Shown: in pieces, positions 1,843 to 61,125 of the stretch
Layout: each line of letters starts with the position of its first letter
Position numbering within the stretch: the first letter of the stretch is position 1
DNA from: Natronococcus sp. A-GB7
GTDB taxonomy: Archaea > Halobacteriota > Halobacteria > Halobacteriales > Natrialbaceae
NCBI RefSeq assembly: GCF_029688865.1
Contig: NZ_JARUKV010000001.1
Location: forward strand, 62,001-126,000
Reading direction: 5' to 3'
Length of the DNA: 64,000 nucleotides
The notes under the pieces: model-generated
Told to the model about the DNA's origin: nothing
Seen by the model: the letters and a program-made list of their open reading frames with translations, nothing else
Databases searched by the model: none
Made by a program: the position numbers and the translations under genes

Positions 1843-4800
1843 TTAGTCGTCGGAGGTCGTCACGAAGTTGCCGCTGAGGTACTCCTCCATCGATTCGTCT
1901 TCGGCGGACGGGCGGATGCCTTTCTCGACGGGCTCCCACTCGCCCTCGCCGTCCATGCCGCCATCTTCGGCCTTGTCGATCTTGACGAACGCCTCCTTGG
2001 GTGCGCCGTTCGCACAGTGAACGTCCGGTGCGAACCCTTCGCCGATGTTCTGACCAGCCATGTCCTTGCGGGGCATGCTGTCCGTCAGTCGGGTCGGCCG
2101 GAAGAACGACGTCGTGGCACTCTGGTGGCCACCCTGTCGGTAGAGGGAGACGTAGTCCGTGTCCTCGGACTTGGCCATGCCGTCGTCGCGCTCTTCCTGT
2201 GCCTCGTAGGATTTGTGCGACGTCTGGTTGACGTTCATCCAGCTTCGGGTAACTCCCTCGGGCATCGCGGGCTGGTACCGGACTCGCATCATCGCGCGGG
2301 CGTAATCGTCTTCGCCCTCGTCGGGATCGTACCCGATGTACGGGCGGTCCTGCGGGTCCGCATCGACCCACACGTAGTCACCGTCGGAGAGCCCCTCTTC
2401 CCGGGCGTCAGTGGGGTTCATCTCGACGTAGCCCTCACCGTAGTACGGCATCCGCTCGTCCTCGCGGTGCATGTCGCCGTGGTTGCCCCACCATACCGCG
2501 ATGTTCGGCAGGGAGTTCGCGAAGGTGTGGGCTCCGTGGCGGTACTTCGGCGTCATGTAGATGTACTCGTACCCTTCGGCCAGCTCCGAGAGGGGGTGGC
2601 TGGAGTCGAGCAGCTCCGTCGGCGTCCTGATCACGTTTCGGACCTGCCGGGCCTTCGTGTCGCCGACGCCGTCGTCCTCCCAGCCGAGATCGTCCGGCGT
2701 TTCGGGGTCGATCACCGGGCTGTCGCTGTCGTCGACCAGGACGTTCGGTTCGTAGGGAGTCGCGTCGATCGGCTCGCGATGAACCGGGATGTTCTCACCC
2801 GATTGCGTGAACTCCGCTTCTTCACGGAAGAACTCCATCCGTCCGGTCTTGGTGTACCAGGGATCGTCGTCCTGGATCTGCCGGCTGCCGACGTACTTCG
2901 GGTAGGTCCGGGACATAATCAGCGCCGGCGTCCCGTCCTCGGCGTCGTCGAGCAGTTCCTCGACGTCGTACCCCTTAACCATGTTCGAGTTGTCGATGAT
3001 CCGCTGGAGGTACGGCTTGGCCTTGTACTCGTCCTCGTCGATGAACTCCCAGTAGTCATCGAAGCGCGGCTCGTCGAGGTTCTCGGCGAGCTTCTGGGCG
3101 ACGCCCTTGTAGTGTTGGGCGTCGTTGCGCGTGTTGTAGATCCGGTCGATTCCGGACTCGGGCATCGTGATGACGAACGGGTTCGTCACCGATGCCGTGA
3201 TGTCGTGGACGTTGTGCTCGGCCCACGAGTCGGCCGGGAAGACGATGTCCGAGTACTCACAGGTCATCGTCCACCACCACTCGCTACAGAAGAACGCCTC
3301 GATGCGACCCGTCCGGAGGGCGCTCTCGATGATCTTGTACGCGCCCTTCGCGTTGCCGAGGAACGAGTTCGACCCGGCGATCCACACCGACTTCGTCGGC
3401 GTGTGCATGTGCGAGTCGCCCTGGAAGTACTCGCCCTCGACTTCCAGTGGCTCGTCGAGGTTGGCGTACCAGTGGGCCGACTGCATGTCGAACCGGCCGT
3501 CGACCTCCGCGGGCTCGTCCGGATCGAGTTCGGGATCGAAGGGGGTTTCCTGGGTGTACTGCCAGACGCCGTTGAAGTACGCCGCGCGGTAGTTACCGGC
3601 GTAGCTGCCGATGTTCCCGCTGAAGCTGCCGACGTTCTGGGTCAGCGACGCGACCAGGAAGGCTGCGCGGTCTTTCAGGTCCTGGTTCGTGTAGTGGTTC
3701 GGACCCATTCCTGTCAGGATGAGCGTCTCCTCCTGGTTGTCGGCGAGGTCGTGGGCGAGGTTCTCGACCGCTTCCGGGGCGGTCCCGGTTACGTCGGCGG
3801 TCGAGTCCGTATCCCACGTTTCGACGAGATGCTCTCTGATGAGATCGAAGACCGGACGCACCTCGACCGTCTCGCCGTTGGCGAGTTCGACCTCGAAGGT
3901 GCCCTCGAGCGTCGCCGCGACGTCGAACTCGTCGCCGACCTCTTCGCGGGTAACCGCCTCCAGCTCACCGGTTTCGTCGTCGCGGACCACGAAGTCGCCC
4001 CACTCCTCGCGCATCTCGTCGGTGATGAACTGCTCGTCGACGTCGGTGATGTCGACGCCCGGACGCTCGCTCTCGTCGGCGACCGTCGCCGTCGTCTCGA
4101 GCTCGCCAAGTTCGTAGTCCTCCATGACGTCGCTCGCGCGCAGGAACTCGCCGTCGTCCAGTCGGACGAGCATCGGGAGGTCCGTGTACTTGCGGACGAA
4201 CTCCTCGTCGTAGAGTTCCTCCTCGATGAGGACCCGTGCCGCGCCGAGGAACAGCGCTGAGTCGGTCGCCGGCCGGACAGTGATCAGCTCGTCACACTTC
4301 GAGGCCGTCGCGTTGTAGTCGGTGAAGATGCCAGTGACCTTCGTGCCCTTCAGGCGGGCCTCGGTCAGCCAGTGGCAGTCGGCCATCTTCGTCGTCAGGA
4401 AGTTGATCCCACAGAGGACCACGTGGTCGGCGTACTCGACGTTCGCCAGGTCGAAGTCGACCGTCTGCTGGCCGGTGACCATCGGGTGGCCCGGCGGCAG
4501 GTCGGTGTGGAACGAGTAGTTGTCCAGGCCGACCGCGCCCAGAGCCTCGTCCTCGCCGACGTCCCGGACGTGGTGGTCGAGAAGCGCCATCGAGTTCGCC
4601 GTCCGATACTGGCCGAACAGCTTGATCGGACCGAGCAGCGGCATCCCGCCGCGGAACTTCATCGAACGGACGCCGGCGCCCTCGGTCTGCTCGACGACGC
4701 GCTCGTCGTAGTCTTGCTCGAGCAGGGCTTCCATACCGCTCTGTCCGCTGTACTGCTCGGCGATCTCGATGAACGTCTCGGCAGCGATCTCGTAGGCCTC

Positions 4801-5349
4801 CTCGTGGTCGACCTCGATGAAGTCGTCCTCGCCGCGGTTGGCGTACTCCTCGGGCATCGAGCCGTCGTCCTCGCGGGGGAAACCGTCCTCGTACCACTCG
4901 AGGAACCCCTCGCGGACCATCGGGGCCTTCACGCGGCGGTCGCTGTAGAACCGCTCGATCATCGCCAGACCCTTGTTACACACGCGGGGGTCCCAGCGCT
5001 GGGTCGCCTGGTTGCCGTGCAGGTCCGTCGCCTCGCCGTAGTTCATCGACGGGCCGAGGCGAGTGATTTCGCCGTTCTTGACCGACGCCTCGAGGTAGCA
5101 GTTGTGCGTGTCGTTCGGCTGGCACGTGAGCATGTAGGAGTCGTCGGGCTCCCACACGTCGCGGTAGTGCTCCTCCCACTCGCGATTCGGATACTCCTCG
5201 AGTGGGTTCATCGGTCCCTCGTCGGCGTCGCCCGAGAGTCGGCGGTAGCCCAGCAGCCCGAGTCCGGAGGCACCGGCGACCCCGGCCGCCGCGGCGCCGA
5301 GCTCGCGGCGGGTCATCTCGATGCCGGCGTCGTCCTCGGATTCAGACAT
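1843..5349 (-). CDS. Type II DMSO-reductase family molybdopterin catalytic (alpha) subunit, Tat-exported
   Basis: A 1168-residue molybdo-bis(pyranopterin guanine dinucleotide) oxidoreductase. A twin-arginine leader (TRREL at residues 13-17, then an Ala/Gly-rich hydrophobic stretch) indicates folded export. The probable molybdenum ligand is D283 in HTDLPPGHPM, which aligns with the E. coli NarG ligand Asp in CDLPPASP. Other NarG/EbdA-like blocks are LTEARLKGTKV and the YTDLPMLVRLDDG segment. These assign it to the Asp-ligated type II group (NarG, SerA, EbdA, DdhA, PcrA). The first iron-sulfur motif is unusual: C76-x3-D80-x3-C84 and C124, with H82 nearby, against His-x3-Cys-x3-Cys in NarG. The substrate (DMSO, nitrate, chlorate, selenate or other) cannot be decided from sequence. 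It is the first gene of the operon with the beta subunit and TorD-like chaperone. Confidence 0.9.
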   Translation of the reverse strand: MSESEDDAGIEMTRRELGAAAAGVAGASGLGLLGYRRLSGDADEGPMNPLEEYPNREWEEHYRDVWEPDDSYMLTCQPNDTHNCYLEASVKNGEITRLGPSMNYGEATDLHGNQATQRWDPRVCNKGLAMIERFYSDRRVKAPMVREGFLEWYEDGFPREDDGSMPEEYANRGEDDFIEVDHEEAYEIAAETFIEIAEQYSGQSGMEALLEQDYDERVVEQTEGAGVRSMKFRGGMPLLGPIKLFGQYRTANSMALLDHHVRDVGEDEALGAVGLDNYSFHTDLPPGHPMVTGQQTVDFDLANVEYADHVVLCGINFLTTKMADCHWLTEARLKGTKVTGIFTDYNATASKCDELITVRPATDSALFLGAARVLIEEELYDEEFVRKYTDLPMLVRLDDGEFLRASDVMEDYELGELETTATVADESERPGVDITDVDEQFITDEMREEWGDFVVRDDETGELEAVTREEVGDEFDVAATLEGTFEVELANGETVEVRPVFDLIREHLVETWDTDSTADVTGTAPEAVENLAHDLADNQEETLILTGMGPNHYTNQDLKDRAAFLVASLTQNVGSFSGNIGSYAGNYRAAYFNGVWQYTQETPFDPELDPDEPAEVDGRFDMQSAHWYANLDEPLEVEGEYFQGDSHMHTPTKSVWIAGSNSFLGNAKGAYKIIESALRTGRIEAFFCSEWWWTMTCEYSDIVFPADSWAEHNVHDITASVTNPFVITMPESGIDRIYNTRNDAQHYKGVAQKLAENLDEPRFDDYWEFIDEDEYKAKPYLQRIIDNSNMVKGYDVEELLDDAEDGTPALIMSRTYPKYVGSRQIQDDDPWYTKTGRMEFFREEAEFTQSGENIPVHREPIDATPYEPNVLVDDSDSPVIDPETPDDLGWEDDGVGDTKARQVRNVIRTPTELLDSSHPLSELAEGYEYIYMTPKYRHGAHTFANSLPNIAVWWGNHGDMHREDERMPYYGEGYVEMNPTDAREEGLSDGDYVWVDADPQDRPYIGYDPDEGEDDYARAMMRVRYQPAMPEGVTRSWMNVNQTSHKSYEAQEERDDGMAKSEDTDYVSLYRQGGHQSATTSFFRPTRLTDSMPRKDMAGQNIGEGFAPDVHCANGAPKEAFVKIDKAEDGGMDGEGEWEPVEKGIRPSAEDESMEEYLSGNFVTTSDD

Positions 5350-5717: not shown

Positions 5718-7013
5718 TCAGGCCAGGAGTTCGGACCGCGCGAGCGGCTCGGTTTCGAACTCGACGAGCCAGCCCTCCTGTCCGAGATCCTCGACGTCGG
5801 CTCGCTCGAGGCGTTTGCCGTCGGACTCGAGGGTCTCCGCGACGGACTCGCGGAGCCGCTCGGGGTCGTGGCGACAGAGCAGCGATAGTCGGCCGTCCTC
5901 GGCGATACCGAGTTCGGTGATCGCCTGTCGCTTGCAGGCCTCTGGCGGGAGCCCACGCAGGTCGATGGCGTCCTCGGGCGCCCGCGTTCCGCCCTTCCCG
6001 GCGACGAACGATTCGACGGTCTCGGCGAGATCGGCGATCGCCCGCTCCCCCGCCGAGGTGCCGTCCACGAACGATCGCTCCGTCGGGTTCCGAAGCGCGG
6101 GGTCGAACGGAACGGGTTCGATCGAGGCGACCGCGTCCTCGTTGATCGCGTCCTCGAGGTTGCGCCCGTCGCCGTCGTATGGCGACTCGTTCGTTTCGGT
6201 CGCGGTCATGTTCGGGACGACGCCGATCGTCTCGACGTCGTTCGCGGTGAACAGGGCGCCGGTACGTTCGGTTGCCCTGACGCCGGCGTCGGTCGGCGTG
6301 CTCACGAGCAGGGCGCCGTCGAGCGGTGCCTGCTGAACGATCGTGTAGACTGCGTCGCCGATCCCCGGCGGAAGGTCGACCAGGAGCACGTCCCGGTCGT
6401 CCCAGGTCGCGTCCCCGAGGAGGTCCTTGAGGACGTCGTGGACCATTGCGCCGCGCCAGGCGACGGGGCCGTCCTCGGCGATCAGATCGAGGCTGACGAC
6501 CTCGATTCCGTCGGCATCGATCGGCTGGGGTCGACCCGAGGGGGTGTTCTGGATCGGTCCCTCGGCACCCAGCAAGTCGGGGATGTCGGGTGCGTAAACG
6601 TTTGCGTCGAAGACCGCCACGTCGAGCCCGGACTCGTCGAGCGCACGCGCGAGCGCGGCGGTGATCGTCGTCTTGCCGACGCCACCCTTCGCGCTGCCGA
6701 TCGCGATCAGCGAGTCGACGCCCGTGACGGGAAGGCCGCTCTCGGGCGCCTCGGCGTCGGTCGCCTCGATCCGGACGTGGTCGATCCCCTCCGTGGCGAG
6801 CCCGGCGCCTCGAAGCTGGTCCGAGAGGCGTTCGCTCAGCCGTCGGTTGAGCCGATCGAAGACGACCGTGAACGTGACGACGCCGTCCTCGACGGAGACG
6901 TCCTCGAGCAACTGCTCGCTGACCGGGTCGCCGTCGGCTAACTGTACCTCCCGCGTTCGGTCGATAACTGCGCGTTTGGTCTCGTCGTCCGTCCGCGGTG
7001 TCTCGTCTTCCAT
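5718..7013 (-). CDS. Mrp/NBP35-type P-loop ATPase with C-terminal DUF2249-like domain
   Basis: A 431-residue protein. Residues 10-85 resemble the MIP18/DUF59 domain that precedes many archaeal Mrp ATPases. Residues 106-116 form the deviant Walker A loop GSAKGGVGKTT, followed by FDANVYAPDIP and the LLVDLPPGIGD Walker B/switch region, as in Mrp/ApbC iron-sulfur carriers. The usual Mrp CxxC after the 'gvVeNM' segment is missing: here it reads GVVPNMTATE. From about residue 345 an extra domain begins with DLRGLPPEACKRQ and GRLSLLCRHDPERL, which resembles DUF2249 and contains two cysteines. It lies directly upstream of the molybdoenzyme operon on the same strand, suggesting a role in cluster or cofactor assembly for that enzyme. 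This role is inferred from position only. Confidence 0.8.
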   Translation of the reverse strand: MEDETPRTDDETKRAVIDRTREVQLADGDPVSEQLLEDVSVEDGVVTFTVVFDRLNRRLSERLSDQLRGAGLATEGIDHVRIEATDAEAPESGLPVTGVDSLIAIGSAKGGVGKTTITAALARALDESGLDVAVFDANVYAPDIPDLLGAEGPIQNTPSGRPQPIDADGIEVVSLDLIAEDGPVAWRGAMVHDVLKDLLGDATWDDRDVLLVDLPPGIGDAVYTIVQQAPLDGALLVSTPTDAGVRATERTGALFTANDVETIGVVPNMTATETNESPYDGDGRNLEDAINEDAVASIEPVPFDPALRNPTERSFVDGTSAGERAIADLAETVESFVAGKGGTRAPEDAIDLRGLPPEACKRQAITELGIAEDGRLSLLCRHDPERLRESVAETLESDGKRLERADVEDLGQEGWLVEFETEPLARSELLA

Positions 7014-57826: not shown

Positions 57827-58096
57827 TCACTCGAGCGAGACCGTCCCGCGGTGATCGACGGTGACGTCGTACCCGCAGTAAGAAAACGAGACGGAACCGG
57901 TACGCGGCCGTCCGTCCCGCAGCGGGGCGAACAGCTCGTCGAGAGCGGTCGGATCGACGACGGAGTGTAGTGGGTCGTACGCCGGCATCGTGAGCTGGTC
58001 GTACTTGATCCCTTCCGCGTCGGCGACGGCCTCGACGACCGCCAGGCTCGGCGGTTTCCGCTTCGTCTCGTCGGTCCCGTCGTAACTGCGACTCAC
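57827..58096 (-). CDS. HalOD1-domain protein
   Basis: An 89-residue protein consisting of a single HalOD1 output domain (SLAVVEAVADAEGIKYDQL, YDPLHSVVDPTALDELF, GSVSFSYCGYDVTV). The domain is common at the ends of haloarchaeal response regulators and also as stand-alone small proteins. Function unknown. Precedes a winged-helix gene in the same direction by 63 nt in reverse order (it is downstream of it). Confidence 0.8.
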   Translation of the reverse strand: MSRSYDGTDETKRKPPSLAVVEAVADAEGIKYDQLTMPAYDPLHSVVDPTALDELFAPLRDGRPRTGSVSFSYCGYDVTVDHRGTVSLE

Positions 58097-58159: not shown

Positions 58160-58528
58160 TCACGAGAGCTCGAGCGCGATTCCGCCGTCGTCGACCGAGA
58201 TCGTGACGTCGTCGACGCGCTGGTCGTACTCGCTCGCGTGGCGGCCCGACTGGCGGATCCGTAGCTTCTCCTCGAGCAGGTCGGCCTCCTCGAGGAGCTC
58301 GAGCTTTCGGTAGGTCGTCGAGAGGGGCACCCCACAGCGCTCGGAGAGCTCCGCCGCCGAGAGGTAGGGCTCGCTGTCGCCGAGCTCCTCGAGAATGCTG
58401 CGACAGTCGGCATCGTTGAGCGCGGTGAGAATCGCTTTGATGTCGTCCTCGCCGGACACGATCCGCGGTTCGTCGGTAAGTTGCTCTCGACCGTACGTCC
58501 GTGATGTCCCGGTCAGCGATTGGCTCAT
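58160..58528 (-). CDS. Winged-helix transcriptional regulator
   Basis: A 122-residue protein. DDIKAILTALNDADCRSILEEL and YLSAAELSERCGVPLSTTYRKLELLEEADLLEEKLRIR form an ArsR/GntR-like winged helix (recognition helix LSTTYRKLELL, first part). The C-terminal part RVDDVTISVDDGGIALELS may bind a ligand or dimerise. The ATG at 58528 gives MSQSLTG. Upstream of the HalOD1 gene and probably cotranscribed. Confidence 0.82.
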   Translation of the reverse strand: MSQSLTGTSRTYGREQLTDEPRIVSGEDDIKAILTALNDADCRSILEELGDSEPYLSAAELSERCGVPLSTTYRKLELLEEADLLEEKLRIRQSGRHASEYDQRVDDVTISVDDGGIALELS

Positions 58529-58641
58529 ACTACACCGTGGTCGCCGGAGTGCCACCAGTGTTGACCACCGATATCGGGGATCCTTTATAACCCGATGTTA
58601 CACATGGTCACGCAGGGCGGAGGCTCGAGGCTCGCCGTTCG

Positions 58642-58797
58642 TCACGCGGTCTCCGCGACGTCGAAGGCGTCGAGATCCACGTCGGCGCCACAGATGGCGC
58701 ATCCGTTCTCGACGAGCGCGTCGCGCAGGGTGTCGGTGACGGCGATCGATCGGGTGCAGGCCGGACAGACGAACCGCGCGTTCTCGCGGGTACTCAT
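58642..58797 (-). CDS. Small zinc-ribbon protein (51 aa), copy A
   Basis: ATG at 58795-58797, TGA at 58642-58644. The product reads MSTRENARFVCPACTRSIAV and later GCAICGADVDLDAFD. CPxC and CxxC form a zinc ribbon. It is homologous to the 45-residue protein at 60164-60301 (FVCPACTRSI against FTCPDCGQQI; GCAICGADV against GCPVCGASV). Divergent from a Bat/NarO-like regulator gene 118 nt away. Confidence 0.78.
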   Translation of the reverse strand: MSTRENARFVCPACTRSIAVTDTLRDALVENGCAICGADVDLDAFDVAETA

Positions 58798-58914
58798 ACG
58801 TCGGACTACGCTCCCCACGCATAAGGTACCGATTCTCGTTCCGAGGGCGTGGGAAGATCGGTGTTCGGTAGCTCACTTTAAATACGACGCAGTCCGAACC
58901 CGCCTGTAGTACCT

Positions 58915-59562
58915 ATGTCGTCGGGAATTCGTGCCACGGTAAAAGTAGACTCCCCGGAAGCCTGCCCGATCGCGCGGTTTTCGCGGGAGACCGGAACGAC
59001 CATCGATCAGGTATCGACGAGCGTCTCCTGTGGGTCGGACGGATCGACGACCGAGTTCCTGGCCGACGCCGACGTCGAGTTCGACGAGTCGATTTCGGGC
59101 CCGGTGTTCTCCTACGGAACGACGAACCTCTACCGCTGTTCTCACGACGGCGAGGCGACGTGCCCCTGCGAGTGTCTGGGGGCGTACGACTGTCCGGTCC
59201 ACCGTTATCGGGCGGTCGACGGGGAGGTAACGGTCGTCTTCCACGCCGCCGACTTCGATCAGCTCCAGGCGGTGATGAACGAGTTCCGGGAGCGGTACCC
59301 CGGCGTCGACGTCCAGAGCCTGCTCCAGCCACCCCTCAGCGGGACGCCGGAGGAACGGATCTTCGTCAACCGCGGGAAGCTGACGGACCGCCAGTACGAG
59401 GTGCTCGAGACGGCCTACGAGATGGGCTACTTCGAGCGGCCGAAGGAGGCCAACGCGACGGAGGTCGCGGAGTCCCTCGGAATCACCCAGTCGACGTTCA
59501 CCGAACACCTCGGCGCGGCACAGCGGAAACTCCTCGGCGACGTCTTAGAGACCGGGACGTAG
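58915..59562 (+). CDS. Bat/NarO/DmsR-like HTH_10 regulator with full Cys signature
   Basis: A 215-residue regulator. The C-terminal HTH_10 domain has LTDRQYEVLETAYEMGYFE, PKEANATEVAESLGI and STFTEHLGAAQRKLL. The N-terminal domain carries cysteines C17, C39, C75, C83, C85, C87 and C93. C75-x7-C83-x-C85-x7-C93 fits the C-xn-C-x-C-x7-C signature of NarO, the haloarchaeal Bat-like activator of denitrification and DMSO respiration, where the cysteines are required for anaerobic sensing. It would be expected to sense oxygen or redox state, probably through an Fe-S cluster. A related gene lies at 60466-61125. Confidence 0.85.
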   Translation: MSSGIRATVKVDSPEACPIARFSRETGTTIDQVSTSVSCGSDGSTTEFLADADVEFDESISGPVFSYGTTNLYRCSHDGEATCPCECLGAYDCPVHRYRAVDGEVTVVFHAADFDQLQAVMNEFRERYPGVDVQSLLQPPLSGTPEERIFVNRGKLTDRQYEVLETAYEMGYFERPKEANATEVAESLGITQSTFTEHLGAAQRKLLGDVLETGT

Positions 59563-59629
59563 CATCACGGCCCGCTCTCTCTGGAGACAACGGAAGTAGT
59601 TTAGTGCTACGCCCACTCGGGGTACGACA

Positions 59630-60097
59630 ATGGCACTTGCCGAGGAGACCGAGATGACCGACGGTGAGATCGACGCGTTTCTCAGCCGCCACGAGACGGG
59701 CGTACTGGCGCTCGCCGACGAGCGGACGCCGTACGCGATTCCGATCTCCTACGGGTACGATGCCGACGCCCGAAGCTTCTATCTGCGGCTGGTCTCGACG
59801 CCCGAAAGCGAGAAGCGGCAGTTCCTGGCCTCCTCGCCGGAGTCCCGACTCGTGGTCTACGAGGAGACCGATTCGGGCGAGACCTACCGAAGCGTCGTCG
59901 CCGTCGGTTCGCTCGAGGAGATCGATCCGTCGGAGCTGACCGCCTCCCACATCGAACAGTACGGCGAGGCGAAGCGGCCGCTGTTCGAGATCTGGGGCGA
60001 TTCGAAGCAGAACCTCGACATCCAGCTCTACGAGTTCGAACCGACCGAGCTGAGCGGTCGGCGGACCGAGATCGATCGTACCGCCGAGGGCGAGTAA
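59630..60097 (+). CDS. Pyridoxamine 5'-phosphate oxidase-fold flavoprotein
   Basis: A 155-residue PNPOx-like split-barrel protein: FLSRHETGVLALADERTPYAIPISYGY, then FYLRLVSTPESEKRQFL and VVYEETDSGETYRSVVAVGSLEEI. Similar stand-alone proteins bind FMN, F420 or heme. It sits between the two regulator modules. Confidence 0.85.
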   Translation: MALAEETEMTDGEIDAFLSRHETGVLALADERTPYAIPISYGYDADARSFYLRLVSTPESEKRQFLASSPESRLVVYEETDSGETYRSVVAVGSLEEIDPSELTASHIEQYGEAKRPLFEIWGDSKQNLDIQLYEFEPTELSGRRTEIDRTAEGE

Positions 60098-60163
60098 CCG
60101 AACTCACAGTCGAGAAACGGCGGCGACACGTCTGGGTCTCGCTCGACCGGGGTGGAGAGCCAC

Positions 60164-60301
60164 CTACTGTTTCGCGAAGTGTTCCTGTGAGACCGACGCG
60201 CCACAGACGGGACAGCCGTGTGATAGCGTCGCCTCGCGAACCGGCGTGTTGACGTCGATCTGTTGCCCGCAGTCCGGGCAGGTAAACTCGTATTCGGACA
60301 T
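60164..60301 (-). CDS. Small zinc-ribbon protein (45 aa), copy B
   Basis: ATG at 60299-60301 (a longer frame extends 19 codons upstream, but the composition changes). The product begins MSEYEFTCPDCGQQIDVNTP and continues REATLSHGCPVCGASVSQ. Two CPxC(G) knuckles form a zinc ribbon. Paralogous to 58642-58797. Divergent from the second regulator gene at 60466, with about 160 nt between. Confidence 0.78.
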   Translation of the reverse strand: MSEYEFTCPDCGQQIDVNTPVREATLSHGCPVCGASVSQEHFAKQ

Positions 60302-60465
60302 CCCTCGTGTGTTGTTGTAGAGAGTAGCTCGCGGTACGGAAGTCGTCGTCTCCACCATATCCGGGTAGGTTTAAGAGAATATCGGGATCGGCTCGCCCTC
60401 GCCTTTTTTCCACGCGCTGGGAACTGGCGGCCGATGTAATCGTGGTCGACCTCGAAGGGGAGCGT

Positions 60466-61125
60466 ATGAGTGGATTGTCAGCGACGGTCGTGCTTCGCGA
60501 CCCGGAGAGCTGCCCGGTCGCCCGCGCCACGAGCGCGACCGGCGAACCGGTCGAGACGGTCTCCCGGTCGTCGCTCTCGAGCCCGGAGGCGCCGGCTGTC
60601 GAGGAGTTCTCGATCGAGAGCGGGGATGAGTCCGAACCCCTCGAGTCGGCCGACGTCGGGGTCGAGCTGTCGACGGTCTCCGCGAACGAACACGGCGAGG
60701 TGTACCGGTTCACGCGGGATCTCGACGGTGTCTGTGCCTGCGAGGTCGTCGAGACCGAGGGGACGCCGGTGTCGTCGATCCGGGCCGAGGAGGGGGCGCT
60801 GTATCTGACCGTTCGGGCGTCCGACGTCGAGGCGCTGTCAGAGATCGTCGGCGCGCTTCGCGAACGGTTCGACGGCGTCGAACTCCAGCAGCTGCTCCGG
60901 ACCGGCGAGGAGGAGTCGGCCGATCTCGCCTTCGTCGACCGGAACCGACTGACCGACCGCCAGCGGGAGGTCCTCGAGACCGCCCACGAGATGGGGTACT
61001 TCGAGTACCCGAAGCGGGCGAACGCGGGCGACGTCGCCGCGGCAATCGGTATCTCGCGGTCGACGTTCTCCGAGCACCTCGGCGCCGCACAGACGAAGCT
61101 CCTCGATTCGCTCCTCGAGGCCTGA
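60466..61125 (+). CDS. Bat/NarO-like HTH_10 regulator with degenerate Cys signature
   Basis: A 219-residue homologue of the regulator at 58915. The HTH_10 block is strongly conserved (LTDRQREVLETAHEMGYFEYP, then SRSTFSEHLGAAQTKLLDSL). C16 corresponds to C17, and C90-x-C92 to the inner C83-x-C85. The outer Cys positions are replaced: F82 where copy A has C75, and T100 where it has C93. The spacing is otherwise identical. It therefore cannot form the same four-Cys site and may act independently of oxygen or as a modulator. The ATG at 60466 is chosen over a GTG at 60442. Confidence 0.85.
   Translation: MSGLSATVVLRDPESCPVARATSATGEPVETVSRSSLSSPEAPAVEEFSIESGDESEPLESADVGVELSTVSANEHGEVYRFTRDLDGVCACEVVETEGTPVSSIRAEEGALYLTVRASDVEALSEIVGALRERFDGVELQQLLRTGEEESADLAFVDRNRLTDRQREVLETAHEMGYFEYPKRANAGDVAAAIGISRSTFSEHLGAAQTKLLDSLLEA

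Follow-up and report, generated by a model that had tools for sequence, protein, structure and literature searches.

A DmsR-type regulator, DUF7560 zinc ribbons, a flavoprotein and a winged-HTH protein form one conserved haloarchaeal gene unit

Introduction

In a stretch of 64,000 nucleotides from Natronococcus sp. A-GB7 (G000:C1:62001–126000), here called the window, two minus-strand genes for small zinc-ribbon proteins each stand opposite a plus-strand gene for a Bat/NarO-like regulator, and a flavoprotein gene lies between the two pairs. The question that this locus raises is whether it holds two copies of one module, as a sequence-only reading had proposed, or a single unit, and what such a unit might do. 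To our knowledge low-oxygen sensing in haloarchaea is poorly understood and the few activators that have been studied are NarO, DmsR and Bat. NarO and DmsR activate the genes of anaerobic respiration at low oxygen, and the gene for NarO is found upstream of the nar operon. In Halobacterium the small zinc-finger protein Brz is needed beside Bat for transcription of bop, the level of bat mRNA being unchanged, and two homologues of Bat, boa2 and boa4, likewise have genes for small zinc-finger proteins next to them or close by (PMC2253796). The concept of pairing a zinc microprotein with an HTH_10 regulator dates from 2008.

Results

All five genes, the two ribbons, the two regulators and the flavoprotein, are present at the positions and on the strands given by the sequence-only reading. 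Regulator 1 (215 residues, positions 58915–59562, plus strand) and regulator 2 (219 residues, 60466–61125, plus strand) each combine a DmsR_N domain (PF24277, 160 and 150 bits) with an HTH_10 domain (PF04967, 76 and 78 bits), both above the gathering scores, and they are 86–97% identical to their nearest named relatives, which are from Natronococcus. The BAT domain is seen in the two regulators only below its Pfam cut-off (16.8 and 21.1 against 25.8 bits) and no PAS or GAF domain was reported by Pfam, so that they do not have the architecture of Bat. The ribbons, which we call alpha (51 residues, 58642–58797, minus strand, CPAC...CAIC) and beta (45 residues, 60164–60301, minus strand, CPDCG...CPVCG), are DUF7560 zinc-ribbon microproteins (PF24441, 62 and 85.5 bits against a cut-off of 27) with two C-x2-C pairs, the four cysteines of which are invariant across 25 relatives. 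Neither is an orthologue of Brz: ribbon beta scores 17.7 bits against the equivalog cut-off of 100 for NF041795 and ribbon alpha gives no match. Between ribbon alpha and regulator 1 is a divergent intergenic region (58798–58914) with a box, TTTAAATA, upstream of regulator 1 that is conserved in Natronococcus.

The flavoprotein gene (59630–60097, plus strand), with which the gene for ribbon beta is convergent, encodes a PNPOx-type flavin split-barrel protein (Pyridox_ox_2, PF12900, 65 bits against a cut-off of 27). Its predicted structure (pLDDT 77) matches FAD/FMN-binding split barrels, such as PDB 2hq9 (Foldseek E 2e-8), and Nim proteins are present among the structural matches; by sequence it falls far under the cut-offs of the NCBIfam Nim families. 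To the left is a gene for a winged-HTH protein (58160–58528, minus strand, HTH_20, 38 bits), the open reading frame of which reaches 58555 with a GTG start. A paralogue of this gene lies just left of the window (G000:C1:61311–61619). A HalOD1 protein (57827–58096) adjoins these genes and scores 74.2 bits against the NCBIfam cut-off of 70 for DdfA, a disk-determining factor.

The pairing of ribbon and regulator in other haloarchaea was surveyed in 79 Halobacteria genomes, each at least 90% complete. These contain 95 DUF7560 genes, spread over 56 genomes, and 110 strong matches to DmsR_N. Sixty-five of the 95 DUF7560 genes have a strong DmsR_N gene no more than 2.5 kb away, where 0.29 would be expected by random placement; the other 30 have no DmsR_N gene within this distance. 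Viewed from the other side, 53 of the 110 DmsR_N regulators have a ribbon. The suggestion that the ribbon and a DmsR/NarO-type regulator make up a functional pair is therefore well supported by gene linkage across the class. The ribbon lies downstream of the regulator on the same strand in 29 cases and upstream on the same strand in 13, is convergent in 15 and divergent in 8. Since only eight of these varied arrangements are divergent, it is the co-location of the two genes that is conserved and not the divergent layout.

The flavoprotein had been regarded as no more than a separator, which is contradicted by its distribution. One close orthologue apiece is found in 47 of the 79 genomes; of the 47, 46 have a DmsR_N gene and 45 a DUF7560 gene no further than 2.5 kb away, and every genome with the flavoprotein also has DUF7560 (47/47, Fisher 6e-13). 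The flavoprotein is thus a core member and not a spacer. Clustering of the neighbouring genes exposed the winged-HTH gene (58160–58555) as a fourth member, with relatives beside the regulator in most genera that have the unit. Counted by genus label, the ribbon recurs 32 times, the flavoprotein 28 and the winged HTH 24, with any other neighbour recurring at most 7 times, these counts being approximate as the labels mix coded and named genomes; the counts of linkage and gene order are from the coded genomes only. Writing H for the winged HTH, z for the ribbon, R for the regulator, F for the flavoprotein and the arrowheads for the strand, the arrangements that recur are H< R> z> F< (11), z> F> R> H> (7), H< R> z> F> (5), H< R> z> F> z< (4) and H< z< R> F> z< (4, this genome included). 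In Haloferax (L076–L079) a regulator, a flavoprotein and two ribbons are encoded together. As gene order and strand vary this widely, the linkage outlives any shared promoter. The true unit at the locus runs from the winged HTH through ribbon alpha, regulator 1 and the flavoprotein to ribbon beta, and both the unit and its conservation are seen directly in the genomes.

Both partners do occur twice in the same divergent arrangement, as the sequence-only reading had said, but there is only one module. The rival reading is tandem duplication of a whole ribbon–regulator module, with the copies then diverging in their cysteine motif. The regulators are 41% identical to each other and the ribbons 39%. 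Regulator 1 belongs, in the regulator tree, to a 38-row clade with a flavoprotein beside every member, and regulator 2 groups with regulators of the Natrialbaceae that have neither ribbon nor flavoprotein. A more careful tree of 46 rows places the two in separate clades with support of 100/99, and the AU test rejects joining them in one clade (107.6 log units, P = 7.3e-5). The ribbons also form two groups that follow position, the upstream, divergent ribbons such as alpha falling apart from the downstream, convergent ribbons such as beta, each with counterparts in the same place elsewhere; this tree, of 52 columns, is poorly resolved and was taken only in combination with gene position. In genera g5 and g6, whose genes run H< z< R> F> z< as they do here, there is no second regulator. 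There the counterpart of ribbon alpha is in the same place, divergent and upstream of regulator 1, and counterparts of ribbon beta elsewhere are convergent and downstream of the pair of regulator 1 and flavoprotein, again with no second regulator. Both positional groups of ribbon therefore co-occur in genera that lack regulator 2, which, together with the AU test and with a threonine at the fourth cysteine position that regulator 2 shares with its stand-alone relatives, makes tandem duplication most improbable despite the repeated arrangement.

Regulator 2 is instead a separate DmsR-type regulator from another clade and stands outside the conserved unit. Its relatives sit between sepF and citZ, the gene for citrate synthase. 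Here sepF and citZ are direct neighbours, the 154 bp that separate them holding no regulator, and a regulator 2 at the place described here is found only in Natronococcus. A grouping of regulator 2 with just the sepF–citZ regulators was not recovered, nor does the AU test reject it (P-AU 0.084). The simplest reading is that regulator 2 probably moved here from the sepF–citZ locus in Natronococcus, the route being judged from the trees and gene positions.

The sequence-only reading had also connected the locus to anaerobic respiration through an operon at the left end of the window. There is an operon there resembling type II DMSO reductases, with its beta (619–1827) and alpha (1843–5349) subunits and an Mrp/ApbC-like NTPase (5718–7013), all far below the NCBIfam cut-offs (alpha 287 against 985 bits; a second score of 240 against 481), but some 53 kb separate it from the unit, to which nothing connects it. 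An operon paralogous to it is found on C15 of this genome with a DUF7560 gene nearby. No nar operon is present at the locus, in contrast to NarO-like regulators elsewhere. None of the module's intergenic regions contains the denitrification palindrome CGAA-N4-TTCG, the count of which in the window is close to chance (65 against 55 ± 7). A scan of the unit promoters in the clade of regulator 1 for a common palindrome gave nothing clearly above shuffled sequences; TATA-like repeats were seen only in the Natrialbaceae promoters, and these are probably facing TATA boxes and inflated by relatedness.

Elsewhere the two families do have a real tie to anaerobic enzymes. A NarGH-type operon, with alpha and beta subunits above their cut-offs (DMSO_red_II alpha 1301 bits, beta 587 bits) and with genes for a cytochrome b and a Rieske protein, lies divergent from DmsR_N regulators at NarO-like loci, four of which (L084, L144, L158 and L164) have a DUF7560 gene; in several other genera such loci have none. 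On a plasmid of Natronococcus occultus and in genus g35 a DmsR_N gene and a ribbon, identified in N. occultus through its similarity to ribbon beta, are found around a DMSO-reductase-like operon, which in N. occultus is 63–69% identical to that at the left end of the window. By analogy with these contexts, and by family, an anaerobic role for the unit described here is plausible. In Haloferax a regulator beside genes for halocyanin and a pseudo-SAM protein has a DUF7560 gene. These loci (L142, L143 and L146), at which a NarO/DmsR-like regulator has the DUF7560 gene directly downstream, would correspond to that of E6P09_00735 of Haloferax mediterranei, a bacterioopsin-activator-like protein beside a halocyanin gene that is described as a likely regulator of denitrification (PMC11218638); the match is by the halocyanin neighbour and not by sequence identity. 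Unlike the unit, a locus of this type has no flavoprotein.

These contexts bear on whether ribbon and regulator are direct partners. Linkage proves shared selection, not contact, and the ribbon might be an independent zinc microprotein, related to RNA or the ribosome or handling metal, that is simply needed in the same circumstances as the regulator. The phenotypes of CPxCG microproteins in haloarchaea are diverse (PMC6562870), and several of these proteins reportedly bind no zinc (PMC11241148), both of which would sit well with a functional neighbourhood of this kind. The repeated association of the ribbon with different clades of DmsR_N regulator and with different operons, however, points to the regulator itself as the partner, and we think the neighbourhood explanation rather unlikely.

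Three further arrangements were observed in passing. On plasmid pNMAG01 of Natrialba magadii (L169, NC_013923, 302023–307110) the unit has as neighbours the genes for a full-length Bat-like activator and for phytoene synthase, an arrangement reminiscent of the bop cluster. At seven other loci of the Natrialbaceae (L125, L126, L128, L129, L130, L132 and L134) a Bat-like PAS-BAT-HTH_10 protein is encoded near the unit, in most with a gene of the aldehyde:ferredoxin oxidoreductase family between the two. On plasmid 2 of N. occultus (L248, 3731–4039) a precursor of an rSAM-modified RiPP of the CGCGG family is flanked by a cbb3-type oxidase gene on one side and by the ribbon and DMSO-reductase-like operon on the other.

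NarO reportedly has the cysteine motif C-Xn-C-X-C-X7-C, as described by Hattori in 2016. In an alignment of 138 regulators, numbered as in regulator 1, the conserved cysteines are C17 (126 of 138), C83 (126), C85 (123) and C93 (82). Regulator 1 has all four, in a pattern that we take to be the C-Xn-CXC-X7-C of NarO. Regulator 2, unlike NarO, has three of the four with a threonine in place of the last. The motif had earlier been read as C-x7-C-x-C-x7-C, with both outer cysteines lost in the second regulator. The loss at the fourth position stands, but the first outer cysteine (in R-C-S-H-D) was misread as part of the motif: it is no family position among the 138 relatives, being found essentially only in the Natronococcus group of regulator 1, and the true first site, C17, is kept in regulator 2. 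Decay of the motif in a duplicate copy was rejected, as the sepF–citZ relatives of regulator 2 generally have threonine in fourth place; the fourth cysteine is also missing from one subgroup of the unit clade.

In the AlphaFold model of regulator 1 (pLDDT 86) two ferredoxin-like alpha/beta repeats are followed by the HTH domain. C17 is just before the first helix (residues 18–26), and C83 and C85 are at the start of what appears to be the equivalent helix of the second repeat (residues 84–90). The best full-length match to the fold of the N-terminal domain is Ta1207 of Thermoplasma (VIA-align Z 8.7, 131 residues, rmsd 3.5, Foldseek E 6e-5), which is not informative as to function. About ten regulators of a single clade (g16, g34 and g42; L165–L177) have lost most or all of the conserved cysteines, yet keep the ribbon, the flavoprotein and, mostly, the winged HTH, so the partnership cannot depend on the cysteine site. 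In many of the loci L165–L177 the gene for the regulator overlaps or adjoins that for the ribbon.

That a clade poor in cysteines retains its partners would also be expected if the flavoprotein were the centre of a self-contained flavin switch, sensing redox state or detoxifying an electrophile or nitro compound, with the cysteine site secondary, the regulator mainly controlling the flavoprotein gene and the ribbon tuning the circuit. The flavoprotein, present in single copy, is hardly ever found outside the unit, and its modelled fold, which fits FAD/FMN-binding proteins and has Nim proteins among its matches, may be read in the same way. Against this, no flavoprotein is encoded at the four NarO-like loci that have a ribbon or at the halocyanin locus of Haloferax. 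Such a switch is possible, though we hold it to be somewhat unlikely.

Discussion

The closest precedent for the unit is the Bat/Brz pair of Halobacterium salinarum (PMC2253796), in which an HTH_10-type regulator likewise has the gene for a small zinc protein nearby, with a CPxCG motif and a place in low-oxygen physiology. The unit differs in that its ribbons belong to DUF7560 and not to Brz, its regulator has neither PAS nor GAF domains nor a BAT domain above the cut-off, and it adds the flavoprotein and the winged HTH. In combining DmsR_N with HTH_10 and, for regulator 1, in having all four cysteines, the regulators resemble NarO of Haloferax volcanii and DmsR of Halobacterium, but the locus, unlike those of NarO and DmsR, has no nar or dms operon beside it and no denitrification palindrome in its intergenic regions. 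The literature searched makes no mention of DUF7560, and as far as that literature shows the class-wide link between DUF7560 and DmsR_N and the four-component unit are apparently new.

We infer a physical partnership, a signal and targets for the unit as follows. Regulator 1 would bind DNA through its HTH_10 domain, its state being set by cellular redox or oxygen through the cysteine site in the ferredoxin-like N-terminal domain. One or two DUF7560 ribbons would act with it on promoters as a co-regulator, as Brz does alongside Bat, and the flavoprotein would be either the redox input to the switch or its main output. Because Brz is needed for transcription of bop alongside Bat, this precedent favours the ribbon as a partner, a positive co-regulator, rather than an antagonist, both of which the sequence-only reading had allowed. 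Taken as a whole, a single conserved haloarchaeal unit made up of a cysteine-redox-switched activator, a ribbon co-regulator and a flavoprotein input or output, with regulator 2 separate from it, is in our estimate evenly poised between right and wrong. The cysteine-poor clade is the main observation that this mechanism leaves unexplained, short of a shift of sensing to the flavoprotein. A bolder version, in which DUF7560 proteins are dedicated cofactor subunits of DmsR/NarO activators throughout the haloarchaea and the flavoprotein of the unit, not the cysteines, is the redox sensor, seems to us unlikely; if true, it would explain a clade that has lost its cysteines and retained its partners.

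With a family of zinc microproteins tied across the class to a family of activators, and with a flavoprotein partner, the single case of Bat and Brz becomes a general and testable scheme, and two uncharacterised families gain a hypothesis for their function.
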